Part shown: one piece after another, positions 10,336 through 45,552 of the stretch
How positions within the stretch are numbered: position 1 is the stretch's first letter
Layout of the letters: each line of letters opens with the position of its first letter
NCBI GenBank assembly: GCA_030280995.1
Contig: JASXTE010000002.1
Location: forward strand, 14,584,683 to 14,648,682
From: Hemileia vastatrix
Taxonomy: Eukaryota; Basidiomycota; Pucciniomycetes; Pucciniales; Zaghouaniaceae
DNA: 64,000 nucleotides
Direction of reading: 5' to 3'
The notes under the pieces: model-generated
Database searches by the model: none
What the model was told of the DNA's origin: nothing
What the model saw: the letters and a program-made list of their open reading frames with translations, nothing else
Translations under genes and position numbers: made by a program

Positions 10336-10379
10336 CACCACAGAAAATTTGGGGGGGGGGGTATTGCTAGCAATACCCC
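10336..10379 (+). repeat. Left terminal inverted repeat of G1
   Basis: CACCACAGAAAATTT is followed by 11 G, then a 22-bp perfect palindrome centred on GCTAGC (10358-10379, including flanking G4/C4). The reverse complement at 45513-45552 matches except for the A/T run and G-run length. AGT lies directly outside. Confidence 0.85.
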
Positions 10380-11288
10380 TCATTTAAAAATGTTGGGAAA
10401 TGGTTGGAAAGCTGTTGGAAGGCTGTTGGGGGTTCATTGAGAAACCAGATTTAAATTAATTGGACAAAGATTTGGTAATCAGTTAGACCTAGGTTCAACC
10501 AAACTCAATCACAGGTTTCTTGGAGCTTGGTGATTACTTTGATTTTGAGCTGAGCAAAGATTGAGCAAAGCTTGAACAAATCACTTAACATATCATAATA
10601 TTCACTTTCCCATCTTGTGGAAAGAAAAATTTGATATTCGTTCTAAGAATATCTACATATATTTTCTTGCCAAGTTGGTAACAGAAGGTTAAACTGTAGT
10701 ATCTCAATTATTACACTAGACTACATAGATATTTGATAAAACATACAATTCAAATCAATTTTAATATTATTGAGATCACCATAAATGTCTTTCCAAAGAC
10801 TTACAAAAAGTATGTTAGTATCAAGACATCGTTCTAGGTAGTAGTTTCAATTTGGATTTTGAACTGACATCTAAATCATTTTACTATTAGACAGAAACAT
10901 AAATAAGTGTAATAAGAGTGAAATTATTCTATTTTGTGATTATAATGTAACAATAAAGCACATTTTTATTGAGAAAATTTTTCTTCCTCCACAAACCAAA
11001 ATTTTTTCTATAGGCTCAAGATTTATTTTTAAACCATATTATTCATTTCAGTTATCATTGATTTACTTCCAATATTTTTTAAAAAGATAATAATAATACA
11101 TGTGAAAGAATTATGAGCTTAGAATAGCATATGCTAAAAAGTTATTTTGTTGTTTTATTCAAAACTGATTATTCATTTTTTGCTTCAATTCATCTTTTAA
11201 CAACCACTATCTTCAGATACTATTCTTACTTAATATTTCAAGTCTCAGATGTGTTTGACAGTTCTCAATAGCGATCGATCAAAATTAT

Positions 11289-13663
11289 ATGAATGTAATT
11301 TCAAGATTTCAAAACTCACCAACCCCCACGATTTTACACCGAGGCCATTTGAATGTTCATATTTTTGGACTACTTGAAGAAAGAAAACCTACCCTTGTCG
11401 GTAATCTTTCTCAAGTGCAGAGTCAGCACATTGGACCACTATTGGGTGACATTGGGTCTGGATCTCACCATTTAAACCAAAGAAGTGCCTTGAATCCTAA
11501 GAAGCCTTTCTATTTTCATGCTTACTTGGTTCCAGTTTTTGGTAATCAGTATCAACTTTGGGGATGCCTCTTTTCTTCAAGTACACTAATCAGTCTTGCT
11601 AAAGAAGCATTTTCTTCCGCTCAAATCAATTTATGTCCGATCCTGAACTACGACTCCACTATCTTTTTTAATATCCCGCATGTAATTTTTGAAGGCTCTT
11701 TCCAAATATCTCAGAGTACTCAAGATTGGAAAGCTGATAAACTTATCCGAGGAATCAAAACAGTTCTCAAAACACATCAACTTCAAGCAATAAATTTTAT
11801 GATTGACAATGAACAAATGTTAAAGGAAAAGTTGGATATCATGTGGAGACACCAGGACAACCACTGGCTTAGAACTGGATTTGATGACTATAATGATCAG
11901 TTTCCTAACAATCAATTAACCCCTGAAGGAAACGGGTCAATACTTGCTGATGATATGGGTTTGGGAAAGAGGTTTTCAACTCTTTCTCTTATAAGTGCAA
12001 CTCAAAGAGAAGCAAGTCAATCCCAGGTATCAGAAAATCAAGAAGGTATTAATTGGAGTTCAGCCACACTGATTATATGCCCCCTGGCAACACTATCAAA
12101 TTGGATCAATGAAATAAGTGTGCACTTTGAAGATAATGCGCTTCCTTTCAAGGTTCTTTATGGGAAGGATTGTCAAAATACTAACGTCAATGAGCTACAG
12201 GACACTGCTATTGTTTTAACGGCCTATGAAACAGCTAGCCTAACGATGTCAAAAAATCAAAGCCAAAAAAAGATACCCGTGACTCAAAAGCTCTTTTGGT
12301 ATAGAGTTGTTTTAGATAAAGCTCAGTTAGTGCCCATTTCTGTATCTAAAACTTAAAAATTAATTTTTATAATCAATTTTTATAAATATTCTTTTAGTTA
12401 CATTGAAAATCCTTACTCACAGAGGGCTCAAACAATATTCGACTTGGAATCCCAACACCGACTATGCTTGACTGGAACTCCACTTCAGAACAGGCCCACT
12501 GACCTTAAAAGTCTCATATTTTTTCTTAGAATCAAAAAGTGGCAAGAAGACTGGTTATGGAAGAATTTCCTTTTTCCAGGTTTGCAAAAAGGAAAGGCTA
12601 ATTCTATTAAATCAATCAATCACTTAATGAAAGTCATAAGCCTACATAGAACAAAGGATGCAATTTTCTCTCTTCCAAAAAAGATTCAAAGGGGGATATC
12701 GGTTCAATTAGCAGATCCATGGAGGTCTAAACTTGATGTGCTTCAAGAAGGATTCACTGAGCGATATGGGCCCTCCAGAAGCACTGACATCCCTTGGGAC
12801 TCATCTGAGTTTCTAAGAGAGCTGATTATTTTAAGAAAATTCTGCAACCATCCAATCTACAAAAATCTGGATGAAACTCCAACTTTTGATTTCACCTGGA
12901 AGCATTCTGCAAAGATTTGTCATCTTATAGGCCATTTAAAAAACTTTTTGTCTGGTGAAAGGGGTATAAATTTTCCAAAAGCTGTTATATTCTCCAACTT
13001 TGCAGACTTTTTGCAGATGTAAGTGATTCTATAATGAATTGTTTTACAAAATTGTGTTGGCTTATTAAAAACAATTTTCTAATATTTAAAAATAGAATAA
13101 AAATGGCTTTAGATGACCACAATATTAGGTATACCCAGCTTATGGGTGAACTCAGCAGGACAAAGAGAGACAAAAATATGCATGAATTCCATTTTAATAA
13201 AAATTTCCAAGTTTTGGTTGGAACGATTCAGGCTGCAGGAGTGGGTATAGATCTCAGGTGTGCTAAAAATTTTTATATAATGGTGAGCTCAATGTCTTTT
13301 ATTTCATATTAAGAACAAAAATATTAAATTTTTTATATGTTCAATGTTGAAATAGGAGCCAAATTGAAGTCCAGCAGTTGAGCAGCAGGCTGTTGATCAG
13401 CTGTATAGAATGGGGCAGCAAAATGAAGTAAAGGTTTTGAATTATTTTCTACAAGGAAGTATAGAATTCAGCATGTATAAGATTCAAAGGAAAAAAATGG
13501 AGCTAACAATGTAAGCCAAATTTCATTTCTATAAATTTTAATGATAATAGTAATCATTAAAATTATGTTTTTGTTTTCAAGGATAAGTGTCCCAAACAGT
13601 GGAAATGAGGAGTATGAGTGTGAAAACCTATTATTAAGGGAGTTTGTCAATCAATCACATTAG
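11289..13663 (+). pseudogene. SNF2/Rad5-type DNA-dependent ATPase (decayed)
   Basis: Chromatin-remodelling type helicase-like protein. First part (11289-about 12320): motif I region A-D-D-M-G-L-G-K-R near 11945, then I-I-C-P-L-A-T-L-S-N-W, then motif II as V-V-L-D-K-A-Q. Second part (about 12390-13017): L-T-G-T-P-L-Q-N-R (motif III), then helicase lobe 2 starts. Third part (about 13094-13282) has G-T-I-Q-A-A-G-V-G-I-D-L. After an intron 13283-13355, exon 13356-13510 has Q-A-V-D-Q-L-Y-R-M-G-Q (motif VI). A last exon 13582-13663 ends at TAG. Introns begin GTAAGT, GTGAGC and GTAAGC. Odd: motif I has Arg after GK instead of Thr/Ser, motif II has DKAQ instead of DEA(H/Q), and a TGA replaces Trp at 13365-13367. 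The true start and the first intron donor are unsure. It lies just inside the left end of G1, so I infer transposon cargo. Confidence 0.75.
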
Positions 13664-14772
13664 AGGAAGAAGGAATTTCAAGGAGAGCAGGTAAATATAT
13701 GGGATTTTGAGGATTTAAAATTCTGAGTTGTTGAGGATTTAGAGATGCAAGATATAAGGGAGAATAACAGTCATTCGGCAAACCCCAGGGGACATGAGAA
13801 GGATTAAGGTTAGGGGATAATGTTGAAACCAAACTGATTCTTTTGTACAAGGCCAAGTCTTTTAGCACACTTCCAGAGTAGGTTGAAGTATCTCAAATGT
13901 CAAAGTGTTTTTGGTCAAGATATTGTGCAACTTTAGAAAAATCTTCAGACCTCCATTGCATTAAGATACGTCTTAAAAATCCATCATTATCAATTTTGGT
14001 GTCTGAACAACACTTGATGTTTGTGAAAAGGTTGTGATAAGTTTCACAATGTGGAAGTTGTTTAAGAAGTTTAGTTCGGTTAACTTAATTCTAAGAATCT
14101 TTGTTATTTGAAATAAAGGTCATAAATAAAAACGGTTGAAAAAAGGGGATTTTCATACTTTTTTTTTATTCTATATTTATGCTTTCTCATTTTGATTATT
14201 TCTTGAGAGCTATGAGAATCCTTCCCAAGTCTTAATTTATCGGAATGAACTAAAAACCAACGGTGAAGAACTCCCATTTAATTTGAGAAGCTAATTTGAG
14301 TTGAGTCAATTGGATATGCAATCAAATTATTGGTTTTTAAGGCATTGTCCCAGTGTTTAATGAGAATATTTGCCAAGACCTGGTTCCATTTGTCAAACCA
14401 ATCTAAGTTCCAAGAAAAAGTTGACCCTGGGAAACCACACATGCAAAGGTGGTCAATAAAAGATTCACAGAAAATTGGTGGAAACTTTTCCAAAACCACT
14501 GAATTTGATTCTGGATGAGGTAGTTCAAAGGCGATGTTGCATGAATTCATGTCAAATGATAAAAATCTGTCTAGTTGCTCTTCAGTAGGGTTTTGTTTCC
14601 ATCCATTTGATTCTGGTGACAAATCCAAAAGTGAAAGACTAAAATTTTGTATAGATCTACCAAAGTGAGAATTGAATGGAGTTAAAGTCTCATTAAAAAT
14701 TCTATTAAGTTTTTGGGTGTTTGTGGGCAGGTTTCCATGAGGAAAGTAAGAGCTACTAGGGTTGATAAAGAA
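13647..14772 (-). pseudogene. Unknown reverse-strand gene in G1
   Basis: Not recognised. On the minus strand an uninterrupted frame runs from 14772 (just after a stop at 14773-14775) to 14278, about 165 codons, rich in Asn, Phe and Pro. A second exon from about 14083 to 13647 gives about 145 codons with one TGA near 13893 and ends with an Asn-Pro-Gln rich tail. The intron between them (about 14280-14084) is inferred from the open frames; its donor is unresolved. No start codon was fixed, so a 5' exon upstream is likely. Its last bases overlap the last exon of the SNF2-like gene, end to end, by about 17 bp. The long open frame, with biased composition in the correct strand only, argues for a real former gene. 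Confidence 0.45.
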
Positions 14773-14799: not shown

Positions 14800-15842
14800 T
14801 AAGCAAGGAGGAAGGATAAATTGTTGAGCTCCAAAACTTTATGATCAAAGTTGATTTAAGGAGAAATATCACAAAAATAAAGAATAAGAAATATTTCAGC
14901 TTTGTGGCATTATAATATGCATAAATTATATTTTTATATGCAATTTAATCTCAAAAGGAATGGTATAAAATTAAGAGAATGATTATTTGATAAAAGCAGA
15001 CTTATTTGAAAAACGGATTTTTTCTTCTTTTCATAAAATTCTTCTACAAAAATAATTTGATAAATGTGAGGCTATGTTCATTTTTTGATTACCAAAAAAT
15101 TATTTTTGGTCCAATATGATAGTAATACATATTCCATTGAGTAATTTTTGTTCAACCTGAATAAATAGACTAGAGTGTCACTTCATCACATTAATGTATA
15201 AAAATTTATACAAGGTTTCAGATTTTTTGTAATGCTTTAAGGTTTACACTTTTGTAGCATCTATTATTTGAGTATTTTTGATTTTTTCTTTATAGAAAAT
15301 TCTACCTAGTACAGACCAATTTTCAAAGTGAAAGAAATATGTTTGTGATTGTTTTTTGCAAAATATTAACCTTATTTTTGGGTTTAACTTTGATTTTTGG
15401 GGTAATTTTAAAAATAATTATGTTAAAAATATGGATTAATTTTCTTATAGTCCATAACTAAGAATTTTTATCAAAATCAAATAATTATAGGGTAGTTAGA
15501 TATAACTCGGAAAGCATTTGATAGAAAAGTAATTAAGATGCTTGTGCATACAACAGAATTTTTTCTATGATAGAAAATATTCTGATAAACATGCATGCAT
15601 TGTTGTACAAATGCAGAGAGTATACAGAATACAAATAAAGTAGACTGCATAACTTTAAATTAATATATAATTTATCTGATTAAAAATTAAACATTTAAAC
15701 TTAAATAATTTCAACACATATTCCATAATATTCTTTTGATAAAAAATTGTAGCTTATATTAGCTAGTGCCTTTCAAAAAAAGGAATACCTTCAATCGGTA
15801 ACTTCCAATAGCTAACTTATTCCTACATTTATCACAATTACA
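14800..15842. other. Intergenic, nothing recognised
   Basis: AT-rich spacer between the divergently oriented unknown gene and the transposase; promoters of both should lie here but no specific site can be pointed to. No RNA gene or repeat seen. Confidence 0.45.
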
Positions 15843-18800
15843 ATGCCTCCATTTTTTCATGCATGTCAATTTCAAGATCTTGGATGTGTCAATAAAAAGT
15901 ATCAAACTTATTCTGGGTCCTTTGAAGTTGGCATGGCTTTAAAAAGCTCTAATTCTTATGCAAAACATCAAGAGGAAAGAAATAGGAAGGCCCAGATGGT
16001 TATTTCTTCCAACAATCCACTTAACATTGGAAATTCCAGCTCCACAGAAACAGTAAGCTGTATATCTATAGTTCAATGTGAGAATAAAAGTCTTTATGAT
16101 GTTTCAATGATTTATTACATAGGGGCAGTTGCTATTGGGGGAAGAAGTATCTTCAACAGTCTCTAGAAACTCAAATCTTGGGGAAAGGTATAGCCAAATA
16201 ATTATGCGGAAGGCAGCAAAGCTTTCTCTGATTCATCATTTGAGCAAAGAAGGTTGTACTCAATTTTTGGATGAAGAAATTAAGAAGCTCAAACTTCTAG
16301 GTGATAGTGGAATACTGGATTTTGATAGCATTGTCTGCCTGATCCCATGCTCGATAGATACAGTTTTTAGTCAATTAAAGCTCAATCAATCATTTTTCAC
16401 TAAAACATGCTGTCCTAAATGCTTTGATCTTTACGAGTATAACTCTGAATCTCAACCATCTATACTATGTTGCAATCAACAATTTCTTTCATCATCAAAG
16501 CACTATTTAAAAATGTTTGGAGCAGGACAAATTGCAGTTAAATGTGATGAAAGGCTGTATTTGATGGAGGAACATCATGAATATGTAAAATACTTATCTC
16601 TTTAAACATTTCATCACCATTATTTTATTGACTGGCTTAAGGAAAATATCAAACTGTTCAAATTTGAGCTTCTGATTGAGAAGAAAACCCCTGTGGCAGA
16701 TGATGTAGAGTGTGATTTGATGAAGGATGTTTGTGATGGTTCAATTTTGAAAAACTTTCCCATTACCACTCCAGCCATGGATAGAAATGATGATGAATAT
16801 ACAATAACTTCAGGCAACTTAATGTTTACTTTATATGTTTACTGGTTTAGGCCTGGTAGCAATAAGATTGGAGGTCATCAGAAGTCTTTAGGAAATATTA
16901 TGATGGTGTGTATGAACCTACCTCAAGAAGATAGATACAAAATGGAAAATCTTTTTTTGTATGCTATTATACCTGGACCAACAGAACCCACAAGTGAACA
17001 GATTAATCACCTTCTAAAACCACTGGTTAATGATCTGCAAACTCTATGGGATGGTATATTGATTGAAAAGACGCATCTTTATCCACAAGGCTGGAAATTA
17101 AGAGTTGCATTGTTCTCTTTGATAGGTGACGTTCCTGCAATACAAAAATTGGCTGGCTTTTCGAGTAACTCTGCAAGAATGTTCTGCTCTTTCTGTAATA
17201 TCTCTAAAGATGAAATTAGTGAAAAGAATGTGGGAAATTTTCATTAAGGAATCAGGAGGATCATATGTTCTGGGAAACAAAGTGGAAAAATTTTAAGTCA
17301 CATTGGGAGCGTGTATCAATTGTTCAGAATCATGGGGTACGATGGAGTGAGCTGAATAACCTTGAATATTGGCATCCAACTGAATATTGCTCAATTGATG
17401 TTATGCATTCACATATTCTTGGAAACCTAAAAGATCACAGTCTAAGCTATTTTCAAATCCAAAATGCAGCAAAAGATCTAGAAAGAAAGCTGGAAACGGT
17501 TAAAAATTGGCATGTAAGAGAAGAAGATGACGATTTCTTTTCTGATACTTCACTGCACAAACATTTGAAAAAACGTAGAAGTAGCTTAAGCACCACGAAT
17601 AATGATGATTATGATACAGGACACACAAGACATCACAAGCAGAAAAGACTTACAAGTTCAAGACAGTCATCAAGTCATCATGGACTAGATAATGAAGGAT
17701 TGGGAAAAAATCAATCAAGAAGCCAGAGTAGGTCATCCAGCTCCAAATTTATTCCTCCATATAGCGATTTGGCCTCAATACAGTCTCACAGCAGTGACAG
17801 TAGGAATTAATTGTATAACTTAAGGCAAAGGAGCATTAGCATATTACAGAGTGAAGGATCTCACTCATCAAATGAGACAGCTAGAGATGAAGAAAATAAA
17901 AGGAAAGGTAAGGAGAAAGAAAATGAAGGTAGTAGTAATCCACAAATCATGGCAGCAGAGCTACAGGTTGTATGGAAGATGATTGATCAAGTAAGAAGAA
18001 CTTAATGGCTAACACGAGTTACAAAATCAGTAGGATCTAAAAAGGCAGGATCCCTCAAGGCAGCAGAATGGCACATGCTGTATACTCTCTACTTCCCTTT
18101 TTCACTTATACCCCTTTGGTTTGAAAAATTTAAAGAATCTGAATCTTCAGCTTCCTCAGCTGAAAAACCAAGAGAATATTATCTTCTCAAGTCACTTGTA
18201 ACATTATGCTTGATCACCAATTTTTTGACATTAAAAAATATACAGACTAATGAGCTTAAAGATCTAGATCAATTTTTGTTAGAGTATCGTGAGTGCCTGG
18301 AAAAGGGTTTGAAGAATATTAATGCAAAGCCAAATCTGCATATCACTCAACATTATCCTGAAATGATAAAGCATCTTGGTCCACCATCAGGTACAGCTAC
18401 TTGGTCTGTAGAGCAGGTGAATCATATATTATCTGAAATTCCAAAAAATCACCATCCACATATATAATGTTTGTAAGCAATGATTTAAAAACTCAGCTGT
18501 GCTAATTTATTAATATTTACCACAGGAGAGATACCGCTAACAATGCTCAAACATTGGTATCAGAAGTCTAGGGTATTAGATCTTGGTGAAGCTGAAGATA
18601 ATGATCAATGTGAGACTAAAAAAATACATATTGATCTCGATAAACAAAACAAATGGATCCATCTAAGTATGGCATTAATTACTAAATGGGTAAGGGCACG
18701 AATGGGAAAAGAAACTTCAAGCTGGGCTCAGACACCATCAGAGAAAAGTGGGGATCAGGTAGTTGAAAATGTAGCAAGCATATTGATACATGGAGAGAGG

Positions 18801-19220
18801 TTTACTAGTTACCATTGACACATTGCTAATTAAACAATTGTATTCTACTATGGAAAAGATAGCCAGTTTGGGAAAATTGATGATCTTTTCAGGTCAAAGG
18901 AAGAGAATGATCAAATATATTTAATAGTAAGTCCTTTCAAGGAGCTCCCTCCAAAAGAAACATCAAAAGATCCCTATGAGCTTTTCCCACAATTGCATTG
19001 TTGGTTAGTAAGAGAAGCCAAAGTAACTCAAATTGTGATTAAGAAAGATGCAATAATTGGACATGCAGCTACTGTCGAGCACAAAAAAGGAATGTTTGGA
19101 ATCAAAGACGAGGTTTTCACTTCCATTGGACTGCAGACAGTGGTGAGTGAAAAATTTAATCAAATTTATTTTCTGTTGACTAACATCTTTGTGTTAATTT
19201 GGGATTTGGGAAATATGTAG
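15843..19220 (+). pseudogene. Plavaka/Tnp2-like CACTA transposase (decayed)
   Basis: Cut-and-paste transposase of the Plavaka/Tnp2 family. Exon 1 is 15843-16052 (an N-terminal C-rich segment); a 70-bp GT-AG intron 16053-16122 joins in phase to exon 2. Family landmarks in order: Y-F-I-D-W-L (16640), N-K-I-G-G-H-Q-K-S-L-G-N-I (16860-16900), N-L-P-Q-E-D-R-Y-K-M-E-N-L-F-L, I-I-P-G-P-T-E-P with N-H-L-L-K-P-L (16970-17020), C-S-F-C (17190), H-G-V-R-W-S-E-L with E-Y-W-H-P and I-D-V-M-H (17330-17410), a hydrophilic insertion (17520-17990), G-S-L-K-A-A-E-W (18060), N-L-H-I-T-Q-H-Y-P-E-M (18340). A second intron ends in AG near 18526, followed by G-E-I-P-L-T-M-L and a C-terminal domain to about 19140. 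Stops at 16603, 17808 and 18003 and a frameshift near 17247 inactivate it. Family assignment is confident; exact end is not. Confidence 0.85.
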
Positions 19221-19647
19221 GATTGGTGATGTTTGTAAATGGTGAAAGAAATAATTCAATGCTCGATTAAAAAATGCAATGCATCCAACTTACCTTATCA
19301 TAAATCAGTGAAAAATTACTTTGGTTGCTTTTATTGTGAGAGAACCCATGCTTTCAATGAGTCATTTTTATCTTAAATGTAAGAATGAAAGAAAGAAAAT
19401 CATGATAATGAGAAATATGATAAAATTTTTACTTAATGAATAATCTTCTTGCTCATTCGTCTACTATAAATAGTTTGACCTTCCCACTTTTTCTGATAGC
19501 TATATATTATTCACTTTATTTTTCCCCAAGATAAAATACACGTTAACAAGACTATAAACATAGTATCTTTTTTTTACTTTAACTTTGATAGGTATAAATT
19601 TTAAAGACTGATTATTTTTCTTCTCTTTTGTTTTATTACAGTTCATT

Positions 19648-21323
19648 ATGGATGATAATTTTGAAGGGATGTCTGTTGACCCAACTGATTCCAATTTTTT
19701 TCCACCTCAACATACTAATACTGGAAATACTCCACCACCACCTGCTGCTGATCCACATCCAGATGCATCTCATTTTGTACCGCCTAATCCTAACCCACCA
19801 CCTAATCCCAATCCAGGCCAAGAGTCTCATGCAGAATGGAGAAATTTTAATCCCAATCATCCTTCTGCTCCTGAAAGTGCTGATCAGCATGCAGATAAGC
19901 TAGGAAGAGATTGGGCTAGTGAAGTATTGAGGGAATTTTTTGGAGACCAATCATCATCTGCTCAGCCTAACCAAGGAGCAAGCACAAGTGGAGCTGGTAA
20001 GTCAAATTTGTAGTGTATTCTTTTATTGAAAAATAACCAATTTAATTAACTTATTTGAATTGTTAGTGAATCCCTCAATCATTATGGGTATCAGTGATTA
20101 CCACAGACTCAATTCAGCAGTGTCTCATGAACAAGAATGGGGTTTAAGGGCTGTAAGAGGCTTAGTTAGAAGGAATGATGTTCCCAGGAACTCGGACAGT
20201 CTAAATAGAAATATTTACCACTTTCTGAAGTATTGTCTTGGGGGACCAACACAAATAACAAAATATCCTGCGAGCCCAACACCTTTGGAGATTGAAAATC
20301 AGAAAGCTTGGAACCAATTCAAACTGAAAACCATTAAAACTGTCCTAAACCAAGTCCAATCTTCTAACCGTGCCAATTCTGCAGCTGATCAACAATTTCT
20401 GATAACCAATTCTATAGCCTTCTTGCAATCCAAAATTCGACTACCTGAATTTTTTCCAGAACCTGAGCCTCAAGGACTAAAAGGAGGAGCACCGATCCCA
20501 CTTTCTGTCAAAAGAAACTTAGAGAGTGAATTGCAAGAAAAAGGTTTTCGGAAATTTGCCTTTGATTGGACTTGCTGTGATTTTTTGGAATCAACTTGGA
20601 ATCAAGTCATGGGAAGCATAGTATGCAACCACTGTACCAGATGGCTCACCACCTTGAATACAATCGATCAGTCAAAGCTTCAGTTCACTCAATGTGTTAT
20701 TGAGAAATGGGTAGTTAATAAGGGGAAGGAGATGATAAGGTTATTTGTTCAAGAAGATGAAAGGGTAGCAAGAGAAAAGATTGAAAAGAGGGAAAGGGCA
20801 CAAGTAAAACGTTATCGGACCAAGGTAAGTTTTTTATTTTCCTTTGATTTTTGTTATTATGAAGCTGATTTAGTTGGAATTCAGATTGCTAGTGCACGCT
20901 ACAAGCTAGCAAGAAATCTCTGCAGTGATGTGCCAGGTTTGGTTGTACTTTTTCATGATACTAGGTGCATCTCTGATATCAAGGAAGGCCCAGCACCAGC
21001 CCCAACTGCACCTATCCGAGCTATTCCTGGATTGCGAAATCCTGAACTCAATTATTTGTTAAAAAATAAATAAGATGACAAAGGACTTAGCACATACACC
21101 AGCTCAAAGAAAATCAGCATTAAAAACATATTCATGGCCATCAGAAAGGACAGTTGCACAAAATGGTGTATTCAACGTTCCCAAATACCTCCCCAAGAAT
21201 TGCTATTCAGCAACATTTTTGCAAGGATTATCTGTGAATGAAGGTGAGTCACTTGGGGTTGGAGCTGATATTGATCTGGTAAAGATTCGGGAAGCAATAA
21301 ATAGAGCATCAACATCTTCATAA
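19648..21323 (+). pseudogene. Unknown gene following the transposase (possible second transposon protein)
   Basis: Not recognised. Exon 1 is 19648-19996: acidic start, then a Pro-Asn-Pro rich disordered part and W-A-S-E-V-L-R-E-F-F-G-D. Intron 19997-20066 (GTAAGT...TTAG) joins in phase to exon 2, 20067-20824, which has Trp-rich segments, a C-C and a C-x-x-C (Cys-Asn-His-Cys), and ends in a basic helix rich in Glu, Arg and Lys. Intron 20825-20884 joins in phase to exon 3 from 20885. A shift in the A-rich tract near 21061-21075 moves the frame; the last 82 codons run to TAA at 21323. An acceptor-like TTATTACAG just before the start suggests a 5' exon further left. The place directly behind the transposase recalls the second gene of two-gene CACTA elements, but that is inference. 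Confidence 0.6.
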
Positions 21324-24354: not shown

Positions 24355-24359
24355 CATCC

Positions 24360-31870: not shown

Positions 31871-31877
31871 AGTGAGT

Positions 31878-31903
31878 TAATAATAATAATAATAATAATA
31901 ATT
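31878..31903. repeat. TAA microsatellite
   Basis: About eight TAA units directly upstream of the antisense gene start. Confidence 0.9.
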
Positions 31904-31980
31904 AAATAAAGAGGAAGGAAAATTAGTGTGGGAAATATTTTTTATGCTCAACGGAGCTCGCGTTCTTATACCTGGGCATC

Positions 31981-32906: not shown

Positions 32907-35333
32907 ATGTCTAGTATTCAATATCCTACACCTCCACTTTGTATGTATATCATGTTCCTCTCTCTTAATTTATATATTTCACTTATTTTCTATATCTTTT
33001 TTTTTCAAAAAATTGATTTTCCAGTTCCCAAATGTGTTTCATCCCACTATCTGATTGATACTCGCTTTGAAGCTTTTGAGCTTGCACCATGTCTGCCACA
33101 TGGCATGGCACCTAACCTTCCTGTACTTAGAAATGAGAGGCAGGAAATAACAAGAGTTCAGTATTGCAATTTACTTGAATTGGCTAGAGATAAACAGAAT
33201 AACTTGTCAAGATCCTTAACAATAATCCTTCTCCTTCATATTTATCTAACCCTTGTAATGACTTACTCCAATATGTGAAAAGCCTTGAAAAATGTATGTT
33301 CTTCACTTTTTTTGTTTCTATTTAAATTAGTAGATAAGATTATTAATATTTTTTTTCTTCATATATATTTGTAGCTTACAAGGAGGGTATGATTCCTCCT
33401 GATGAAATCAATGTCATTAGGGATGATGATGAGACAGATGAACCATCAGCTTCAACTTATGCTTCAACTTCTAAGGAAAATCTTGAAACACCTGTCATCC
33501 GCTCCAAGAAAAATAAATTATCCCAAGGCTCCCCTTTTGTTCAACCTATTAAACCGGCTTCTTCTAATGAATTTTTTGATGTATCAAATAATAAATCTCA
33601 AAAAAAAAGCAAAGGCTTTGATAATGAGTATATTCTTGTTTCCTTTTTTTTTATTCTGATTCTTTTATCTTTAAAATTCTATCATATAACTCTTTTATTG
33701 CTTACATATTGTAATTTTTATCTTTATTTTGATATTTTGTACCAGAAACTCACCCACTTTAGATGGTTCCATCCATAAACGCCTTCTACCTGATGAAGAT
33801 GATGAAAATAGCAATGAAAATAGCGATGATGAACTGTCAGAATATGAAGCTATGTTTGCTCATCAAAACAAGCAAACTTTAAAATCTTCTTCAAGACATG
33901 TTGATATGTTTGATAAAGATGATGATTCAAACCACTCATCACCAAATTCCTTCATTTCTAGGAAGCAATACCCATCACCTCCTAAATTACCTACTTTGTC
34001 CACTTTGAAAGCTTCTCTACAAATGAAATCAACTCCAATCAAGATATCAAAAAAACCTCTAACTTATTCACCCTCAGTTCTAAAAGACTCTGATTTGCAG
34101 GAGGAATTCTGTAAAATTCATAATTTTTATAAAGGTAGAATCAGCATGGAAAAGGTCTTCAGGTCGTGGTTGGAAATTGTTACTCTCCTCAAATTACACT
34201 CTTCTACTTCTTCCCAAGAGCCCATGTTAAATATTCCAATGTTTAATTTTCATTGGGAAAAATATTGTGGAGAAGATTGGCTTTCAAAACTTACTGAGTT
34301 ATGTAAGTTACCTTAATTTTTAGTCTTGACTTTGTTCTTTTACTTATTTTTTTTTTCATTTTGTAGCAAATATTTTTTTAGAGATTGATAGCTCACAGCT
34401 ATGGGTACTCAATAATATTGATTTCAAAAAAATGTAAGATTTATGTGATCCTGATGGTTTAAATACTGAAATTCTTTCCTCAACAAAGAAAATGGATCAC
34501 CCTGAATCCAATCTTATCCGAATGCTCATGAGATTAATGATCCCAAGTGACCACTGCCGTTCTTCATGGCTATCTCTTATATCATCTTCACTTTATCTGA
34601 CCGCACATGAATTCAGACAGCTTCCATCACATCAAAAAATTAACTCAGATTGTCCAATCGAACTTGTTCTTCAGCTTCTAGCTCACCTTTCAAATCTGAA
34701 GAGTCCGATTCCTGATGGCTTAGAAGTTGGTCCCACTGCACTTCAAACCCGTGATATATCAATGTCAACTCTTCTTCAAATCAGAAATATTATCATTTAT
34801 ATAATTATGTCAATTATCATTCTTAAATCAAAATATTGTGCTTCAACAATATCAAGTGGCAAGACTAGCGAAGCTCAACAATCAAGTCAGAAAAACAAAA
34901 ATACTGAACTGACTATAATGAGACTGAAACAAAAGGCTGCACTAAACAAGATAAATTCTGAATACTCCCACCACCAATATCAATCTTTCAAATTCTATAT
35001 AATTGAAGGTGTCTGTGGATTATTTCTGAGCTCTCAAGATCATAGATTGGCTTCAGCAGCTGATTGCTTGGAGGTAATATCAGAAATTACGTTTCTTAAT
35101 TTACATGAAAAAAAAATCATTTTATGGAAGAAATAATTTGGAAAAATTTAAATAACTATATTTTAACATTAATAAAACCTTTTATAGTCAAGTGTGATCC
35201 ATTTCCTTTAAAATTTGATACCTCAAGTCCTCCAGGAATCGCTAGGGCTATTTCTGCAGATTTTCTTAATCACTGGAGCTCCATTCAGCCAGTATCACCT
35301 TTTTTTGCTAAACATAGCCTTTCAATAAATTAA
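32907..35333 (+). pseudogene. Cargo gene B of G1, unknown function
   Basis: Not recognised. ATG at 32907. Exon 1 32907-32940; intron (GTATGT...CCAG) to 33024; exon 2 33025-33293; intron to 33374; exon 3 33375-about 33628; intron to 33745; exon 4 33746 to about 34303; intron ending with TTTTGTAG near 34366; then a long last exon. All junctions keep phase. The protein would be about 650-700 residues: a short N-terminal block, an acidic Ser-rich disordered middle, a Trp-containing block (33746-34300) and a C-terminal block with F-Y-I-I-E-G-V-C-G-L-F-L-S-S-Q. Broken by a frameshift near 33215, TAA at 34436 and a shift in the A-run near 35110. Its paralogue is gene A at 3940-7551; retention in two elements beside a TET-like gene suggests a role for the transposon, not chance capture. 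Confidence 0.65.
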
Positions 35334-36130: not shown

Positions 36131-37335
36131 TTAATTATCAAAATTTTTTAGATTTGTCTTAACATTAGATAAAAAATACTTTGCTGAATTTATTTCTTCC
36201 TCTATTAAGTCATCTCTTTTCAAAAAAACTCTCAAAGCACTAATCAAATATTTATACCTATCTTTTTCTTCTTTAATTTCCAAGTACTCTGAAATATCAA
36301 TATCAAAAACATTAAGCTTTTCTATAGCATGAGAAATTCTAGTGCTGATTTGAATAGAAGAACCTATCCTTGTGAAGCCATGAATTTTGTGACATCTTGA
36401 GGTAAAATGGCTCAGTTGATTGGCAGGCCATAACGTCACTGTTATTCCATTTGTTGCTTCAAATTTAATTTTACTTCAAATTTTGGGAAACATAAGTTCT
36501 CCACCTGTTTGTCGTGGTTGGGTCTTATTGTACTTCATATGAATGGTACTGTTTTCTGTATCTTTAGGAAAAAATATTCCTAAAGTATACTCACTTGCAT
36601 CCTTATCACAATGAACCTCATTGGAGAACCCATTACCATTTGCTCCAGATGTCCAAGTTAAATTACTAGCAAACGGTACACCCTCTTCTTCACTATAAAC
36701 TTTTGAAAATCCAGGAATACCAAGTTTTGCACAAAGATTAGTTGCCTCGTTGTACTTTATAAATGATATTTTTTTAAAAAATATTCAAAGTACATTGCAA
36801 TCCTCTTCATTCATTTTTCATATTCATCCGTGCGTACAATCTTATTAGTGTATTCATCTGCAAGTAAAAGCATTCAAAAATTAAGAATTTAAATTAAAGA
36901 AAGTGATACTTACAAATATATAAAGATTTATTCCTATCTAAAATAAAGCCACCACCAAACATTTTTCCAAAACCACCAGCTCTTTGATGATAACCATTAT
37001 TTATAATTTCATGTTTGCAGTAAGAAAGATCCTTAATGCATTGCACCATAGCTTCTAAAATATCTAGTTCTTTGAGCTCATGAATTTCAAAAGTCTGCAC
37101 AAGAACATTAGGTATTAAGACACCTTTTAGTTTTTAAATACTAAAACCAGGAAAAAAATTGTAATAATTATTGCAATGTGTTATATTATTTGCATAAGAT
37201 TGTGCATAGAAATGTGGCTTCTTCCCAATTGTATCCATTCTAAGAGCATTTACAAGTTTCATTCCGGTAGCAATGTCTTTTGCCCACCTATTGTTAGAGT
37301 TCTTCCCTGGCCTTTTTTTTCAAATTGTCACTCAT
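36131..37335 (-). pseudogene. TET/JBP-like 2OG-Fe(II) dioxygenase in G1
   Basis: Fungal TET/JBP-like (Tet-like 2OG-Fe(II) oxygenase) family, whose studied members oxidise 5-methylcytosine or thymine in DNA using 2-oxoglutarate and iron. Minus strand, ATG at 37335. First exon to about 36914: basic N-terminus K-R-P-G-K-N-S-N-N, then C-I-K-D-L-S-Y-C-K-H and G-G-F-G-K-M-F-G-G-G-F. Intron GTAAGT...TTGCAG to about 36861. Last exon: iron-binding H-x-D in E-V-H-C-D-K-D (about 36613), T-L-G-I-F-F, G-G-E-L-M-F-P, distal His in N-Q-L-S-H-F and the 2-oxoglutarate-type Arg in G-F-T-R-I-G-S-S-I-Q-I-S, then a C-terminal tail to TAA at 36131. Broken by stops (three, near 37130, 36805 and 36475) and frameshifts in A-runs. 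The catalytic set H-x-D, H, R is all present. Substrate is inferred from the family only. Confidence 0.75.
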
Positions 37336-37586
37336 TGATGGTTCAATCCTAAGAGAATTCAATTTTGATTTAAAATAGAAAAAAATCAAAAATTAGAAAA
37401 TAGTAACAGAATTTCAATTATCAGTCAATGATACCTTTAACTTTATCATATCTTAAATATTAGAAATACAAAAGTTAGCATATCTACATATTAGTAAATT
37501 TTTATACTTTTTCTTTATTTAAAATATTAAGAAAGTGTTTCAAAGGTACACTTTATTAAATTATACATATAAAGAGTATAGATTTA

Positions 37587-37927
37587 TCCTGTATGCATTC
37601 AGCAAGTACAAGATTTGGATATACACTTAATATTAATAATATAATAAAAGAATAACTCCAATACACTAGTAATATTGAAAAATTTACAGAATTATCATAT
37701 CCACACATATAAAATGAAAAATCTTGCTCTGACCAATATATTGACTTAGAAAGTTATACTTCAATAAATTATTAATTTTTAAATTTTAGCATTGTCCTGT
37801 ATGCTTTCAGCAAGTACGAGACTTTGAAACAACTTAAAAATCAATAAATTAAAGTTAAAGTACAAACAATCTAATTATTATTATGAAAAGCAAAAAATTA
37901 TCCTGTATGCTTTCAGCAAGTACGAGA
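37587..37927. repeat. Three copies of a 27-bp motif upstream of the TET-like gene
   Basis: Nearly identical 27-mers at 37587-37613, 37795-37821 and 37901-37927, each starting TCCTGTATGC and containing CAGCAAGTACGAGA (ACAAGA in the first), all in the same direction. They lie 250-600 bp upstream of the minus-strand ATG at 37335. A diverged copy lies at 60809-60836 upstream of the related gene 59212-60360. Candidate regulatory or transposase-binding sites. Confidence 0.65.
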
Positions 37928-38939
37928 TGATGTTTTACTTTTCATATTAATAATATAATGGTTGAGAAAGTATTAAAGAAATATAGAAAAATGATAAGCA
38001 AAACATGAACTTACTTGTCTATAAAATCTTCTTCCATTTGTAGCTGATTGATCAAAATTAATTATAAATTTTATTTTATAATTACTGTTTTAAAAAATAA
38101 ATGGTTAGATAAATAAATTCAACATTTTTGATAAGGAATAAAGAAAAGTAAATTGACCAACAAATAAAAAAACCTTAAGTTAACTGAAAAAGAGTTTTTT
38201 TTATAATGAATCAAAAGGGTACAGTAAAAGATAACATAAAAATAAATTCAGAATTAGAATCATTAGATTAACTTGTCAAAAGTGTAAAAAAGAGTAACAA
38301 ACCAAAATGATATGAAATTCAATAGAAAGAGAAATTCGCTTACCGGTAATCAGATAAGGTCAAGAAAATAGTACCAATAATTCAAAATGATAAAGCAAAA
38401 ATATGATTGATAATCTTTGAAAAAGGTAAGTGAGAAAGAAAAAGGAAAAATAAATTGGGTGGCAAACAGATGTAGATATCATGAATTTTCACTGATCTCA
38501 TTTTAAAAAAAATGCAGCTCTCCAAGTCATATGATAAACTTCATCTAAATTCCAAGAATAATGTTGCCAAGGCACTGTACACAGCATGATCATTTTTTCC
38601 TATGCATATACTAATTCCAGATAGAATTTACTTGGCTGCATGTTGTACAGATGAACATTTGTGGAACGCTTAATTTCACATCTAAAAAAAATTGATGCCA
38701 CATAATTCTAGCTACAATGTTTCACGTAGCTAAAAAACATACACTCATCACATTTAAATTTACATTGCATCAAAATTAATTCATTTTCTAATTTATTTAA
38801 AGGGAACTATAATGTGCACCACCTATTTCTAAAATATGAACCTCCCCACCATATTAAATTGGTAGATTTTTAATTGTGCAATTTTTATGCCTTGGCCTTC
38901 TTCCTGATCTTACTTGGCTCAAAATATCAAAACATGGCC

Positions 38940-39509
38940 AATGTTGCTGAAAGCAACATTTGATTTTGTTTCTATGTGTATCAATGGAAGGCCGTTTATA
39001 GCCGGCTGCAGAGCGTTGTATATCTTTTTGAACAAAGTTTAATATATTTATGTATTTTAATTAGATAGTTTACTTTTTAATGCAGCCAGATTTATACTGG
39101 CTGCTTTTTGGAAAGCTTAATTTATGACCCAAGCCTTTGAAATTGGCTTGGGTCCCTTACATTGCAATTTAGTACTTCCAGCCAGGTTTTCCCTGGCTGG
39201 AGGTGTCTCTTTCAGGCAATCAAAGTCGCCAAAAGTGACTTTGATTGTTTGCTGTAACATTTTCCACCCTCCCAGCCAATTTACTAGGCTGGGAGGTGGC
39301 CAAAGCTGTGTGCAAGGCGCGTTGCACAATCGCTTCCATATCTCATGCAGCTGATATCAAGTCAGCTGCATGTGCTGCATGCAGTGCATTGCACAGCCAG
39401 TTTTTTTCTGACTGTGAAATGCACACAGAGAAACCAAAGTCCCTTTCAGGGACTTTGGTCACTAAAATGGAAGCAACTTTCCCTACCAGGTGCAAACTGG
39501 TGGGAAAGT
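38940..39509. repeat. String of about 11 unrelated hairpins
   Basis: Consecutive inverted repeats with different sequences: 38940-38960 (9-bp stem), 39083-39105 (GCAGCCAG), 39126-39154 (GACCCAAGCC), 39177-39201 (TCCAGCCAGG), 39217-39247 (CAATCAAAGTC), 39264-39299 (13-14 nt, one bulge), 39309-39328 (TGTGCAA), 39345-39371 (ATGCAGCTGA), 39384-39424 (17 nt, two mismatches), 39433-39459 (ACCAAAGTCCCT), 39476-39509 (one bulge). Loops are 3-9 nt. The stretch is clearly more GC-rich than its surroundings and has no conserved frame. Confidence 0.85.
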
Positions 39510-42500
39510 GAGAGACAAGTTAGAATGAAGTTTTTTGAAAGCAACCTCAGTCTTAAAAACATTAAAAATCATTAAAAAAAATGAGAAAGCTAGAAAAAAA
39601 ATTAAAAAAAAAATTAAAATGTGAGTATAAGAAAAAAAATAAGTGCTAGTGATACCAAAAACCCAAGCTGATTTCATTTGTCTTGGTTATTTAATAATTA
39701 TTTTTTAATACATTAAATTTAAAATTCAAACACCATGAAATATATGAAATTTTTTTATATGAATATTATAAATTTAATTTACTTCTTTCTCATAATTATA
39801 TTTATAATTTTGTTTTTTTTAATTTTTGACTTTTAAGTTGATTTTTTGGAAATACAAAATTATATTATCAACTAAATTTTTTAGTAAGGTAAAAATAATT
39901 ATAAATTTGACATTTTGTAATTAAATAATGAAAAATTTTTAAATTTATTTAAAAAATATTTTTGTTAGAAGAATACCAATATTTTAAGGGTAGAAATATG
40001 GTGCAAATTGTAAGTAAAAAAATTATATTTTTTTTGGTGAGGGGTTTTTTCTATTTTTGTAAATATTTTTCAAAAAAATTCATTAAGTAATGAATTTAAT
40101 TACTTTGTAACTCAAATTTTTTGTAAAATAATTAAAATTGAAATAATAATATTGATATATTTGATATAAAATTTGAATTGGTAATATTAATGTCTCCTTA
40201 AGTAAATTTGAAAATCATTAAAAAAGACCATGTTGATAAGTACTTCATTTTTGTTATACAATGGTTATATGTATATCTTATATATATTTCTTGAGTGTTA
40301 TTTTTATATACATTCAATAAAATTTGTAATACATAATGCCATTTAATCATTAATTATTGTATAACTTAGTTATAACAACTTCATATTTAATACCAGCCAC
40401 TAGTATTTACTTTTTAATTTAAAACTCCAATATAATATGAGAGTATCCTTATTTTGTCTGTATGTAATTAACAACAATAACAGACCATAAAAGAGTTGGT
40501 AATTAATTACAATAAATAGTCGAAGAACAACCTATAGGAAATGATAAGTTTATTAAAAAGAGTACATTAAAAAAATATACTTTTGAATTTTTTTTGTTAT
40601 AATTTGGGTAGTTAAATGGAAATTTAAATTATCAGACTTCAAAATGGAAAAAATCTAAAAGTGGTGTTTATATAATAAGCCTCATATAAAAAAAAGGATA
40701 AAAAATCTACCATGTAACTAAATTATTAAATATTAAGGTATTATTAAAATTAATGAAAAACTTATTTTACAGTTATAATGAAATCTAAATGTGAAAATTA
40801 TGGTGGGATAATAGTAAGACTATGTGGAAACACTTTAATTATACATACTTTCAACTATGCCCAGATAAAAAAATTGGTAAAATTGTATAATAACATCTAG
40901 TTAATAGTGATGCAATTTTATTTAGATCAAGAATAAATTTTTCTGAGGAAAAACTAATTAAATTGAGATATGGCCACCTCCTTTCAAGAGATAGAATAAT
41001 AATAAAAATTTTTAAAAATTATAATAAGTATTCTTAATCACCATTTTTGAAAAGTCTCTAGTAAAATTAATTATAATATATCATTCATTTATTACATTAT
41101 ATGGAGTTTCATCTTGAAGTAGTGATGGGCAGCTTTGAACTTATGTTATGAAAAACAAAAAAGTTAAAAAATATATAGTTATACTAATGAAAAAGCCAAA
41201 AATAAAAATACTATTATAAATTAATAAAATAAAACTACATAAATTTTATTCTGCTCTAATGATGGAAGGGTACTATGTATGAATTTCCACATGTTAAATC
41301 TAAACCCGCTTTAAGGCTAGTTTACTGGTAGAGCTATTAAGTTTCCTTAAATTCTAAAAATAAATTATGCATTTTACTAAATATTCTTTTCTTGTTTTCT
41401 TTCCAAAGTTGTTAGAGTTGCTTAATTAATACTGTTATCTTGATTGTAAGATATATAATTTTTTTGAATACATGATTTATTGTTTCAAAAATTATATTAT
41501 AAAGTTAAATCATTTATTTCATTTTCTAAAGCTTCATTGTCAAAGACACAACTCCATATTCTATTACTTAACAAATATATAAAATTTTATAGTAAAATTT
41601 TTAGAATTTTCTTTTTGAGAGGGTCAAACTATATTGTGAAGATTTTTATCTAGAAATTCTTGTACTCTAAAACCAAATAATTTTCTCCCTTAAGTAAGCA
41701 ATTTTAAAAATATGAAAATATAAGCAAGAATATTAACTTATCTTATTTTTATTTTCTTTACTGAAATTTTATGTTCAATCCCTTTTTTTATATGACATTA
41801 GTATAAAACAATGGTTAAATGCTACTATATAATTAATTTTTATTATATATATTTATATATATATATGAAGTATTTAGAAGGTCATCCTTTTTTATTCACT
41901 TGAATAAATGGCTCAATTATAATTCCCAACACTTATTAATCTTTCCCAAACTCAATAACAAATTTCTTATATGAAATATTAGCTTCTAATATAAGAAGTT
42001 TATCTATAGATGATATTCAACATGTGATTTTCCTTTTTAGATTCAGCTAAAATTAAACTAAAGGAGAAATCATGCATATGTGTATAAATGGTAACCATAT
42101 GTTACTTATAGGATTGTTAAATTCACTCATCAGAATGGTTTAAGTATTAAAATAAATTGAGGTCATTATTTTCTAGTATTTGAAACTAATAAGGAAATTA
42201 TTCTAAAAATATATTTTAATGTGTATCATGTTTAAAAAGTTGGAAATATGATTTTTGAAAATTGTGAGTTTCTTATGAGATACCAAGCTTTAGTTTACAT
42301 TGTTTCAAGTAGAATAGAATTTTAGTATTAGAAATTGAAAGCAATGTACCATTATCAGATTTTAACTGTGTTCTACTTATAGAATGATTACATAACATTA
42401 AAAATTATTTAAATCAAAAAGGTTTAAAAGATATTTAGAATTTTACAAAATTTCACCATTTATTAATCTTTGATTTGAAAACCAACTATGATGTACACTC

Positions 42501-43566
42501 ACTAGAAATAAGCAATCCCAATTTTAACATAATTTATCAATCCAAAAATAATGAGTCAATTAACATGAAAATATATATTATTTCAAACCAAATCCCTAGA
42601 TTTAAAATATGATGCTTTAATGAAAGATGTATACAAAACTTTAAAGCAATAAACTCTCTTAAAAAATTCAAAAATATAATATAAAAACAAGTAATTTCTG
42701 CAGAAAAAACGACTAACTATTGTAGATAAAGCATAAAAATAAGCCATATTTTTAAAAAAAATGATCTAACAATAATAATTTTTGTTAAAAAAATCAAAAA
42801 CACTGTTAAGTTTTCTTCTTATAATAATGTTAAAATCTACTAAACATTATCTAAAGGTGGCAAAATATGTCAAAAATATGTTGAATTTTGTGAGCCAAAA
42901 ATCAACAATTTTGTATCATTTCCTGTTGTGCTATGACTTTATTCCACCCTTTTTATCTGATTCTTCCAGTATTACTTTGCTATGATCACTAGTTTTCAAG
43001 TTAAAATTTACAAATGTTCATTATACTTGATAATATGAAAATTAACTCAAAATTTTATAACTACAAAATAAGATTTTGAAACTCCTTCTTTCAATCAATA
43101 TTTGAAGAAATTATTAGTTTATTTGAGTAATGATTTTGAGAATAACAAAAAATTTGAAATTCACAAGGACTTATTTCCAGAGACTATAATTATTTACTTG
43201 TGTAATGCATGAGCTACTTAACATCAGAAAAATAAGTTATAGTTTTAAATCTACAGATTATACTGTGTCTGGTATATATATCTTCAATAAATCTTTTAAA
43301 CTTATCTTAACCTACATACCACACAATAGAAAATCATTATATTAAAAAAGGAAAAAATTCTATGATAATATCATAAAGAATGATAACCATGGATTGATAT
43401 TCCATAAAGTTGGTTAATAAAATTTTAAGAGAACCTAAATCAGTATTCTTTCATCAAAATATATCCTTTTTGTTTTTGTAATTTATTCCAAACAAATTTT
43501 TTGAAACTTGAATCTATATATCTAATGCCAAAACCACTATTAAGTTCCCTCTTAGAATTTTTAAGC

Positions 43567-43605
<39 letters not shown>

Positions 43606-45512
43606 ATTTATCAAAAATTGAAATAAAGAATAAAAACATAATTTTATTTACCTTTAATTATTTAAATATAGAGTATTTTCAGAATGCATTGTGGTTACTT
43701 GTGAAGGTTAGAAGATTCGAATTTAAATTTATGAGTTTTTAGAAGGGCAAATATTGTAAAATTCTTTCATAAATATTTATTTCATAGTTTCAAATGTTGA
43801 AATCTACAAACTAATGGATTTAAAATTATATTTAGATTTAAAATCTGTTTTCTACTCAAGTAAAATAAAATAAAATAAAATGATGATATCAAAATTGAAA
43901 TTAAGTTTAAACTTTTGATATGCTCTATCTTCAATTTTATTGATAGTGCATCAAAAATTTAATAATATTTTTTTCCTTCATCACTTTTTACATAAAAGAT
44001 AGTTCTATCATTTTATGCATTAAAGATTGCTTATATAAATTTAACATCTATGTCAACTGTTTATGACTATTAATCTATATAATAAATTTTTTAGAAGAAA
44101 AAATAACATCAGTATATACTGACTTTGAAATTATTTAATTTAAAATAGTTTACAGGTAGATAATGAAGGGTGATTTCATTTTTGAATATGAATTATAGAA
44201 GTCTTATTTTGTCAATTTTAATTCTTTTTGAGGTCAAATGTATCCGCTTCAACTTATGTAAGAATAAAAATTTTTTTTATTGAAATTTACATGAGAAAGT
44301 ATGCCTATTATTCAAAATCAAACTTGCTCTAATGGTGTTTTTCAATCATTATTTCCATTCATAACAATAAAAAACATTTCAATTTGCTTATGTTTTAGTT
44401 TTTGATATCCCCAAGTTTATATCTAAGGTGTACTATTCACAAAATTATTAAAAATATAATTTTTGAAATACATGATAAACTTGAAAGTGAGGGGGCATAA
44501 AATTTTTAAAAATGAATTCTAAATTCAGGATGGATAGTATTTTTTCTATTTTCACAAATGAAAAAATTTTTGTTTCAATTAATCCAGAAAAAAAAATTTG
44601 TTGTAAGCATATTATATTATATTTATTTTGATTTTAAATACTATATTCTTAAGATTTGTGTTTAATATTTCCTGTGAAAGTTAATGTTAATTTGAATTTT
44701 AAGTAAGCTTGAAGAAATTTAATCAATAGGCATATTGAATATGTAAAATAATAATTTTCTCCAATCTTGAATCATCCTGGGCTAAAATATCTCCCGAATA
44801 AGGTTTTTGTGGGTCAATTTGGATTTAAGTAGGATTAAGTGAGGTTTAATAAAAGACAGATAAAAGTCTAAATTAATTACTAGTGACTTTTTTCTCAAAA
44901 TAGTTATAAAATATGTATCATTCTGGAATCAAGCTTCAATAAAGTTGAATTGAAACAGAGATAATTTCTAGCAGCACAACACCATATTTACAAAGGTGTA
45001 CAATACCTCAAATATCACTCATAATATAGGAAGGCAAGGAATCTACAAAATTCACATTTGAAATGAGGATTTATATTTTGAATTTGAAATTGAGAAACGG
45101 AATATTATTTTCCAATTTAAATATCTATTAGTCATTTTACCAAAAGTTTTCAGTAATCAGATTGAATTTTGATGGTATTTTATTGTAGACTAATCATTTC
45201 GATGAGCCATTTACTCAAAATTACTGGTTTCGGTTCTAATAATCCATGTGAAATTCATTACAATCTTTTTGAAAGTGAATAGTTGACATATTGGATATGC
45301 AAAAGCTTATGTTAGATCAAAGTGAGATCAAAGGGAGTTCAACTCATGATCAAATTAGGATTTTGCAAGATCAAATGGTGATCAATGTAGGTTCATCTTG
45401 AGCTCAATTTGTGACAAATCTCTGACTAAATGTAAGGCCAAAAAATTTCCTACATGGTGATGATGTGTGCATAATTCAGGCATAGATTTGTGGCTCAACG
45501 GAGTTCAAGAAA
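39510..45512. other. Long AT-rich right arm of G1, no genes seen
   Basis: About 6 kb without a supportable gene on either strand; frames longer than 60 codons are rare and of simple composition. Near the right end (45300-45430) GATCAA occurs repeatedly in short spacing, possibly subterminal sites. An AT microsatellite lies at 43569-43602. Confidence 0.55.
43569..43602. repeat. AT dinucleotide microsatellite
   Basis: About 17 uninterrupted AT units. Confidence 0.95.
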
Positions 45513-45552
45513 GGGGTATTGCTAGCAATACCCCCCCATTTTTTCTGTGGTG
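45513..45552 (-). repeat. Right terminal inverted repeat of G1
   Basis: Contains the same GTATTGCTAGCAATAC palindrome as the left end (45516-45531), then seven C, ATTTTTT and CTGTGGTG. Reverse complement starts CACCACAGAAAAAAT. AGT follows at 45553-45555, equal to 10333-10335. Confidence 0.85.

Follow-up and report, generated by a model that had tools for sequence, protein, structure and literature searches.

A 26.8-kb EnSpm/CACTA-type transposon family of Hemileia vastatrix with TET-like dioxygenase and SNF2 ATPase genes inside its ends

A giant DNA transposon of Hemileia vastatrix (Basidiomycota; Pucciniales) is described here, located at positions 10336-45552 of a stretch of 64,000 nucleotides (contig JASXTE010000002.1 of assembly GCA_030280995.1, positions 14,584,683 to 14,648,682 of the forward strand), which as a whole is called the window. 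The element is 35,217 bp long, and subtraction of a nested Ty3 retrotransposon leaves 26,795 bp, in agreement with the 35.2 and 26.8 kb given in a preliminary description based on the letters of the window. It represents one mobile unit of about 26.8 kb. The genome holds many two-ended copies, and between the ends of the full-length ones lies a common gene set. This set includes a tnp2 transposase, an SNF2 ATPase and a TET-like 2-oxoglutarate (2OG)-Fe(II) dioxygenase, and we consider it probable, from the families to which these proteins belong, that we are dealing with an EnSpm/CACTA family carrying an anti-silencing kit made up of the TET and SNF2 enzymes. The window itself contains an inactivated copy, in which transposase, SNF2 and TET genes are all broken.

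The element is bounded by matching inverted ends (45 bp on the left and 41 bp on the right, the alignment differing by four bases within a run of G) and by the trinucleotide AGT on both sides, which bears out its original delimitation by terminal repeats and an AGT duplication. A perfect 22-bp palindrome is common to both ends and has exactly two exact occurrences in the window, one per end; with up to three mismatches allowed there are still two matches, against a mean of 0.00 in 100 shuffles. The same palindrome gave zero matches in a scan of viral contigs.

The whole assembly (747.6 Mb in 791 contigs) was searched for these ends. A 35-base end pattern had 814 forward and 818 reverse exact matches, while the control, i.e. 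the same pattern reversed, had none. The resulting count of 1,632 ends is a lower bound because the left end of the window copy itself, with its longer G run, cannot match the pattern. Queries with the left end, the right end, the transposase, the SNF2 gene and the TET gene found 652, 1480, 1829, 1700 and 1614 first-look candidates, respectively; the best 40 candidates of each were scored, and each query gave at least 40 scored matches at 91-100% identity, nearly all over the full query. Right-end candidates outnumber left-end candidates, which may reflect deletion derivatives or word masking.

The spacing of the ends was computed on one contig of 36.0 Mb (C2), where the 90 ends listed form 36 adjacent facing pairs, 34 of them less than 60 kb apart. 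All but two of these 34 consist of one left and one right end, and 26 of the 36 pairs are 26-30 kb apart, compared with 0.2 on average, and never more than 3, when the ends were placed at random 2,000 times. Other pairs of ends, for which a genome search had been suggested, therefore do exist and cluster near 27 kb. If the 34 pairs are extrapolated from this single contig to 747.6 Mb, the genome would contain roughly 700 two-ended copies, amounting to nearly 19 Mb.

Six further copies, chosen from the list of transposase matches, were fetched and aligned with the window copy. Five are colinear and full-length and carry the same cargo, and the sixth is interrupted. The 3-bp duplications flanking the full copies are identical in four cases (AAT, ATT, ATA within a TA repeat, and ATT), and the fifth copy has ATT/TAT. 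In every 500-bp step over 10336-21335 and 32790-45552, the identity of the five copies to the window is 89-98%; being even along the length, it leaves no place for a separate cassette. Moreover, when the two flanks of one copy were joined, 40 places in the genome were scored, of which 39 span the junction at 82-88% identity and the 40th is the copy's own right flank. These 39 related empty sites show that this copy inserted as a unit into an interspersed repeat, its two ends having moved together. The outcomes that had been named in advance as refuting the unit (no second copy sharing ends and cargo, or ends that never moved jointly) were accordingly not observed.

The opposite reading, namely a composite of nested elements in which TET and SNF2 segments were separately inserted into a short transposon, could appeal to the nested retrotransposon of the window copy and to the insertions of their own that other copies carry; in view of the colinear full-length copies at other loci, the even identity, the ends paired near 27 kb and the empty sites, it has next to no probability and was rejected for the unit as a whole. 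As to those insertions, three copies (C121, C631 and C42) share two insertion points, corresponding to window positions 21467 and 41142, each with an insertion of about 0.75-0.83 kb, and a fourth (C260) has one of about 4.6 kb at the equivalent of position 35773.

Co-carriage of the two enzymes was evaluated at ten SNF2 places, taken from the top of the match list irrespective of the presence of TET. The TET gene was found at the expected distance in seven. At the remaining three, different parts of the element occupy the expected position, which points to deletions or insertions; in one of these, TET lies 30 kb from SNF2.

The features of the window copy are collected in Table 1. By span, their order is SNF2, gene B, tnp2 transposase, gene D, palindrome array, nested Ty3 retrotransposon, gene E and TET.

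Table 1. Features of the giant transposon, in window coordinates
Feature	Position	Strand	Remarks
Target site duplication AGT, left	10333..10335	.	adjoins left end
Left terminal inverted repeat	10336..10380	+	starts CACCACAG; palindrome GGGGTATTGCTAGCAATACCCC at 10358-10379; same end in the five fetched full copies
SNF2 ATPase gene, HLTF/RAD5-like	11289..13514	+	exons 11289-12325, 12398-13018, 13096-13282, 13356-13514; splice sites and stop judged by eye
Gene B, function unassigned	13650..14772	-	open reading frames (ORFs); longer open frames in another copy
tnp2/EnSpm transposase	15842..19217	+	C-terminal part 18489-19217 assigned by eye
Gene D, function unassigned	19612..21320	+	long open frame in window copy
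Array of palindrome TTAATTTCGATCGAAATTAA	21540..23472	.	19 units with no more than 4 substitutions; located between genes D and E
Nested Ty3/gypsy retrotransposon	24360..32782	+	long terminal repeats (LTRs) about 24360-25161 and 31981-32782; target site duplication CATCC (by eye)
Gene E, function unassigned	32914..35330	+	ORFs
TET-like 2OG-Fe(II) dioxygenase gene	36134..37320	-	broken by two in-frame stops and a frame change
Right arm, AT-rich	37321..45511	.	no recognised gene; conserved in other copies
Right terminal inverted repeat	45512..45552	-	closes CTGTGGTG; palindrome at 45513-45534
Target site duplication AGT, right	45553..45555	.	adjoins right end

The transposase of the window copy contains stops, a frame change and a replacement of the first catalytic D, and matches the Pfam family Transposase_21/tnp2 (E 3e-14, domain at 16.6-17.2 kb); that of another copy scores 58.4 bits with PF02992 (tnp2), for which the cut-off is 28.6. 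In the latter, LYVD, GDIPA, CSFC, HITQH and GER can be recognised by eye, fitting the pattern of C(2)C and H(3-4)H between the second D and E. All six fetched copies have the catalytic LYVDWF. Of the five full copies, two have an open main frame (779 aa, with the first catalytic D), and in three this frame has at least one stop. With a start in CAC, a close in GTG and a 3-bp duplication (AGT/AGT in the window, and identical triplets in four of the five full copies), the element is, as judged by termini, duplication and Pfam, of the EnSpm/CACTA rather than the Plavaka type. Of the Plavaka/Tnp2-type transposase announced in the preliminary description, the tnp2 half is thus sustained and the Plavaka half is not. 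Two transposase relatives do show a Pfam similarity to Plavaka slightly under the cut-off, and a likeness to Plavaka was remarked by Kojima for the EnSpm elements of rusts (PMC12730594). However, a Plavaka-type element appears very improbable, considering that PF18759 reached 19.1 bits in another copy (cut-off 26.3), where tnp2 exceeded its own cut-off, that it was not listed for the window copy even at E up to 10, and that the termini CACCACAG..CTGTGGTG (CAC..GTG) are neither CATCA..TGATG nor TGT..ACA, as required for Plavaka.

A protein search with the transposase returned 19 relatives at E ≤0.001, mostly at 26-37% identity, including two proteins of Puccinia striiformis, many unnamed metagenome proteins and one protein of Austropuccinia psidii (28%). 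In one panel, CACTA elements were recorded in Pucciniales and not in other Pucciniomycotina (PMC12210899). Pfam scans of the larger ORFs of the element listed neither a KDZ transposase family nor a tyrosine-recombinase domain. The latter is relevant to Starships, the giant fungal elements defined by a tyrosine-recombinase captain; membership in this group was rejected, as no captain domain was listed and the element has inverted ends and a tnp2 transposase instead.

The preliminary description had proposed an SNF2-like helicase and a TET/JBP-like oxygenase as separate genes, and Pfam profile searches match both. Two exons of the former match PF00176 (E 1.1e-23 and 4.7e-20), and Helicase_C was also found (E 3.5e-7); these two domains, together with Walker A, DEAH, GTP and motif VI, as read in other copies, place the product among the SNF2 proteins. 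No RING domain was found in the SNF2 gene of the element. The window copy has changes at both Walker A and Walker B, and one in-frame stop. The Walker A change occurs in none of 24 relatives checked, all of which have GK[T/S]; for Walker B, DEA[H/Q] was matched in 17 and DKA in 2, five sequences being misread by the pattern. All five full copies have a normal Walker A, and DEAH is present in the four that are in frame at that place. The reading frame is open throughout in one full copy, has one stop in three, and a frameshift in one.

A search with the SNF2 protein gave 2,221 proteins at E ≤0.001. Among the best 120, 22 are Puccinia proteins (the top 21 and one more) at 30-42% identity, some being alleles or genes from different strains of one species, and below them rank a chytrid protein, unnamed proteins and animal HLTF. 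Compared with solved structures, the best profile match was RAD5, and DDM1 was also among the best 60 of 82.

The unbroken piece of the oxygenase matches PF20515, 'Tet-like 2OG-Fe(II) oxygenase superfamily', with E 4.8e-13, and the gene read through its breaks (X at each) does so with E 7.1e-22 over profile positions 18-208 of 211. In another copy the match has E 2.5e-22 over positions 67-208 of 211, a similarity over most of the fold. The H-x-D, H and R reported earlier for the window copy were all recovered: the first is HCD there and HLD in all five full copies, and the distal H and the R are also present. The distal H aligns with that of two other TET genes in the right flank of the window, and the candidate R for 2OG binding is not conserved in those two. 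Four of the five full copies have an open long exon, and one of these four has a stop in the preceding exon. A query of the protein database gave no relative of this protein, and sequence searches of the PDB gave no meaningful match.

Genes B, D and E had been described as being of unknown function, and in fact none of their scanned ORFs matched a Pfam family above the cut-off. With up to three mismatches, the palindrome of the array between D and E has 16 matches in the window compared with 0.03 expected, and 19 units of TTAATTTCGATCGAAATTAA at up to four substitutions are present in all six copies examined (the window copy and five others). Every TCGATCGA of these six elements falls inside the array. 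Each of the five other copies has 12-13 units with a CG, and the window copy has 6. It is possible that the array is a regulatory or methylation-sensing region.

If these parts are considered together, a mechanism may be proposed. The tnp2 transposase would cut and paste the unit, as suggested by its family kinship and by the ends. The TET-like enzyme would oxidise methylcytosine on the DNA of the element, and the SNF2 ATPase would move nucleosomes or other proteins out of the way, giving transposase and TET access to silent copies; enzyme activities and any effect on silencing are predicted here from the respective families. The array of CpG palindromes would be a candidate region for docking and for sensing methylation, with gene D as its possible reader, and by analogy could play a part like that of the repeats targeted by VANC, which are noncoding tandem repeats with short motifs (PMC10398659). 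In its fullest form, this mechanism would be a complete self-encoded machine, in which gene D or another protein docks on the TCGATCGA palindromes, SNF2 opens the silent chromatin at the array or displaces a methyltransferase, and TET oxidises methylcytosine at TCG sites that are both methylated and mutated by the host; this elaboration is tentative, and we regard it as conceivable rather than probable. If true, such a kit would account for the multiplication of a CACTA element of 27 kb to hundreds of copies.

The mutation pattern bears on whether the element is exposed to the modification that TET would remove. When the window copy is compared with the five full copies, C>T differences affect 104 of 383 CpG sites (27%) and 142 of 6,704 other C sites (2.1%), with the highest value at TCG (51 of 143, 36%). 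The window copy has a CpG observed/expected ratio of 0.23, and the five others have ratios of 0.35-0.39. The concentration of differences at CpG, and most of all at TCG, fits what is expected of a methylation target. Because of this focus and of the CpG depletion of the window copy, the element has plausibly been exposed to a modification that TET would reverse. The pattern also agrees with the TCG-biased hypermutation that has been described for Pucciniomycotina (PMC12730594). The earlier suggestion that the element edits its own DNA modification and chromatin state has gained in plausibility from the CpG-focused differences, and is still something we infer; it cannot apply to the window copy, three genes of which are broken. 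As copies of different age coexist in this genome, sequence comparison is sufficient to measure what methylation costs in mutations.

Several observations weigh against an active anti-silencing kit. In no full copy of the five are the transposase, SNF2 and TET genes open together, and no autonomous copy was seen in this small sample; open frames for each of the three exist in other copies. SNF2 is broken in four of the five. The lysine in Walker B of the window SNF2 also occurs in two of the 24 relatives, and the identity of the TET gene rests on one Pfam family plus aligned residues. CpG depletion is equally strong in the flanks (0.17 and 0.27) as in the window element (0.23-0.24), and the polarity of the C>T changes is set by the other copies and not by an outgroup. 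In addition, C>A (G>T) differences come close in number to C>T differences, both in the window copy (211 against 246) and in each of the five others.

The broken SNF2 frames could also mean that TET and SNF2 are passengers, which spread by hitch-hiking and bring no benefit to the element. The five full copies are 98.5-99.7% alike over the three genes, and the shared presence of the genes can reflect a single recent burst. We consider this explanation unlikely, if still of some weight: Puccinia has many SNF2 relatives in which the helicase motifs are conserved (even if some represent alleles or strains of a single gene), the right flank of the window contains two further transposons with TET, and TET recurs in seven transposon lineages of rusts with mostly intact frames (PMC12730594).

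A different alternative concerns the product of the dioxygenase, which instead of removing methylation might make a lasting modified base that marks or shields the element. JBP makes base J, and CMD1 makes 5gmC. In trypanosome JBP2, a TET/JBP oxygenase and an SNF2 ATPase are joined in one fused host protein that oxidises thymine; the pairing is the same here, but with two separate transposon genes. Other products of the rust-type TET were left open by Kojima (PMC12730594). However, no gene for sugar or glyceryl transfer was recognised among the scanned ORFs of the element, three genes of which have no family, and a lasting base seems to us rather unlikely.

Finally, the SNF2 protein might act against a methyltransferase rather than against nucleosomes, as a RAD5/HLTF-like protein competing with DNMT5 for hemimethylated CpG. 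The best profile match to RAD5 would agree with this, as would the structure of fungal DNMT5 itself, in which a Rad8-like SNF2 ATPase is fused to the methyltransferase and which recognises hemimethylated CpG (PMC13297926). We hold this variant to be improbable.

TET-carrying EnSpm elements in rusts are not new, having been published in 2025. Kojima (2025; PMC12730594) reported TET in seven rust transposon lineages, including EnSpm of P. striiformis, and argued that it counters methylation and TCG-biased hypermutation. Those EnSpm elements resemble the present one in their rust-related host, in a transposase with some Plavaka similarity, in CAC..GTG termini, in 3-bp duplications and in the TET/JBP gene. 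In contrast, SNF2 occurs 0 times in the main text of that paper (its supplementary family sequences being outside the comparison), and a size of about 27 kb, hundreds of copies and an array of CpG palindromes are likewise not mentioned in the excerpts of its main text. Searches of the open literature, with supplements and the 2014 KDZ paper outside them, found no paper on an SNF2 and TET pairing in CACTA/EnSpm. The SNF2 cargo may be new, although its priority is not certain.

The 2014 paper is that of Iyer et al., who reportedly found TET/JBP genes in KDZ transposons. These are likewise basidiomycete DNA transposons carrying TET/JBP and extra genes (PMC12730594), but have another transposase class, other termini and 7-8-bp duplications. 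As to self-encoded anti-silencing, TnpA is a DNA-binding protein and not an oxygenase. It belongs to maize Spm/En, a CACTA element with a protein of its own linked to element demethylation, and no SNF2 is mentioned for it in the excerpts of PMC10398659. VANDAL elements, whose VANC proteins provide self-encoded anti-silencing tied to noncoding short-motif repeats, are a different kind of element, for which the same excerpts mention neither an oxygenase nor SNF2.

According to a 2026 review, transposon-encoded TET/JBP proteins are yet to be functionally characterised (PMC13297926). If the anti-silencing reading is true, the present family would be a eukaryotic mobile element with DNA-oxidising and chromatin-remodelling enzymes inside its own ends, and a natural high-copy system for testing transposon-borne TET against methylation and remodelling as the limiting step. 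It would also bear on how such elements helped to inflate very large fungal genomes.

The retrotransposon nested in the window copy is absent from all six fetched copies, and is a later arrival. Its LTRs are 95.9% identical over 803 aligned bases, and gag, reverse transcriptase, RNase H and integrase domains were found. The observed/expected ratio of CpG is 0.56 within it (24340-32300) and 0.23-0.24 in the surrounding element.

In the right flank, the giant element is closely followed by a second transposon remnant (46889-49383), with a DDE_Tnp_4 (Harbinger-type) piece (E 4.8e-12) followed by a Tet-like oxygenase (PF20515, E 5.7e-19). A third TET-carrying transposon (52179-58847) has 39-bp inverted ends (92%), with no clear target duplication at them, and a DDE_Tnp_4 transposase (E 5.9e-27). 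It contains an open Tet-like oxygenase frame of 340 aa (55351-56370, E 1.1e-24) and a weak Myb/SANT-like match under the cut-off at 57744-58499 on the minus strand. The window therefore holds three TET genes from two transposase classes. Inside the third element, C/G-rich inverted repeats with long arms (54332-54950) stand out in the GC-poor window.

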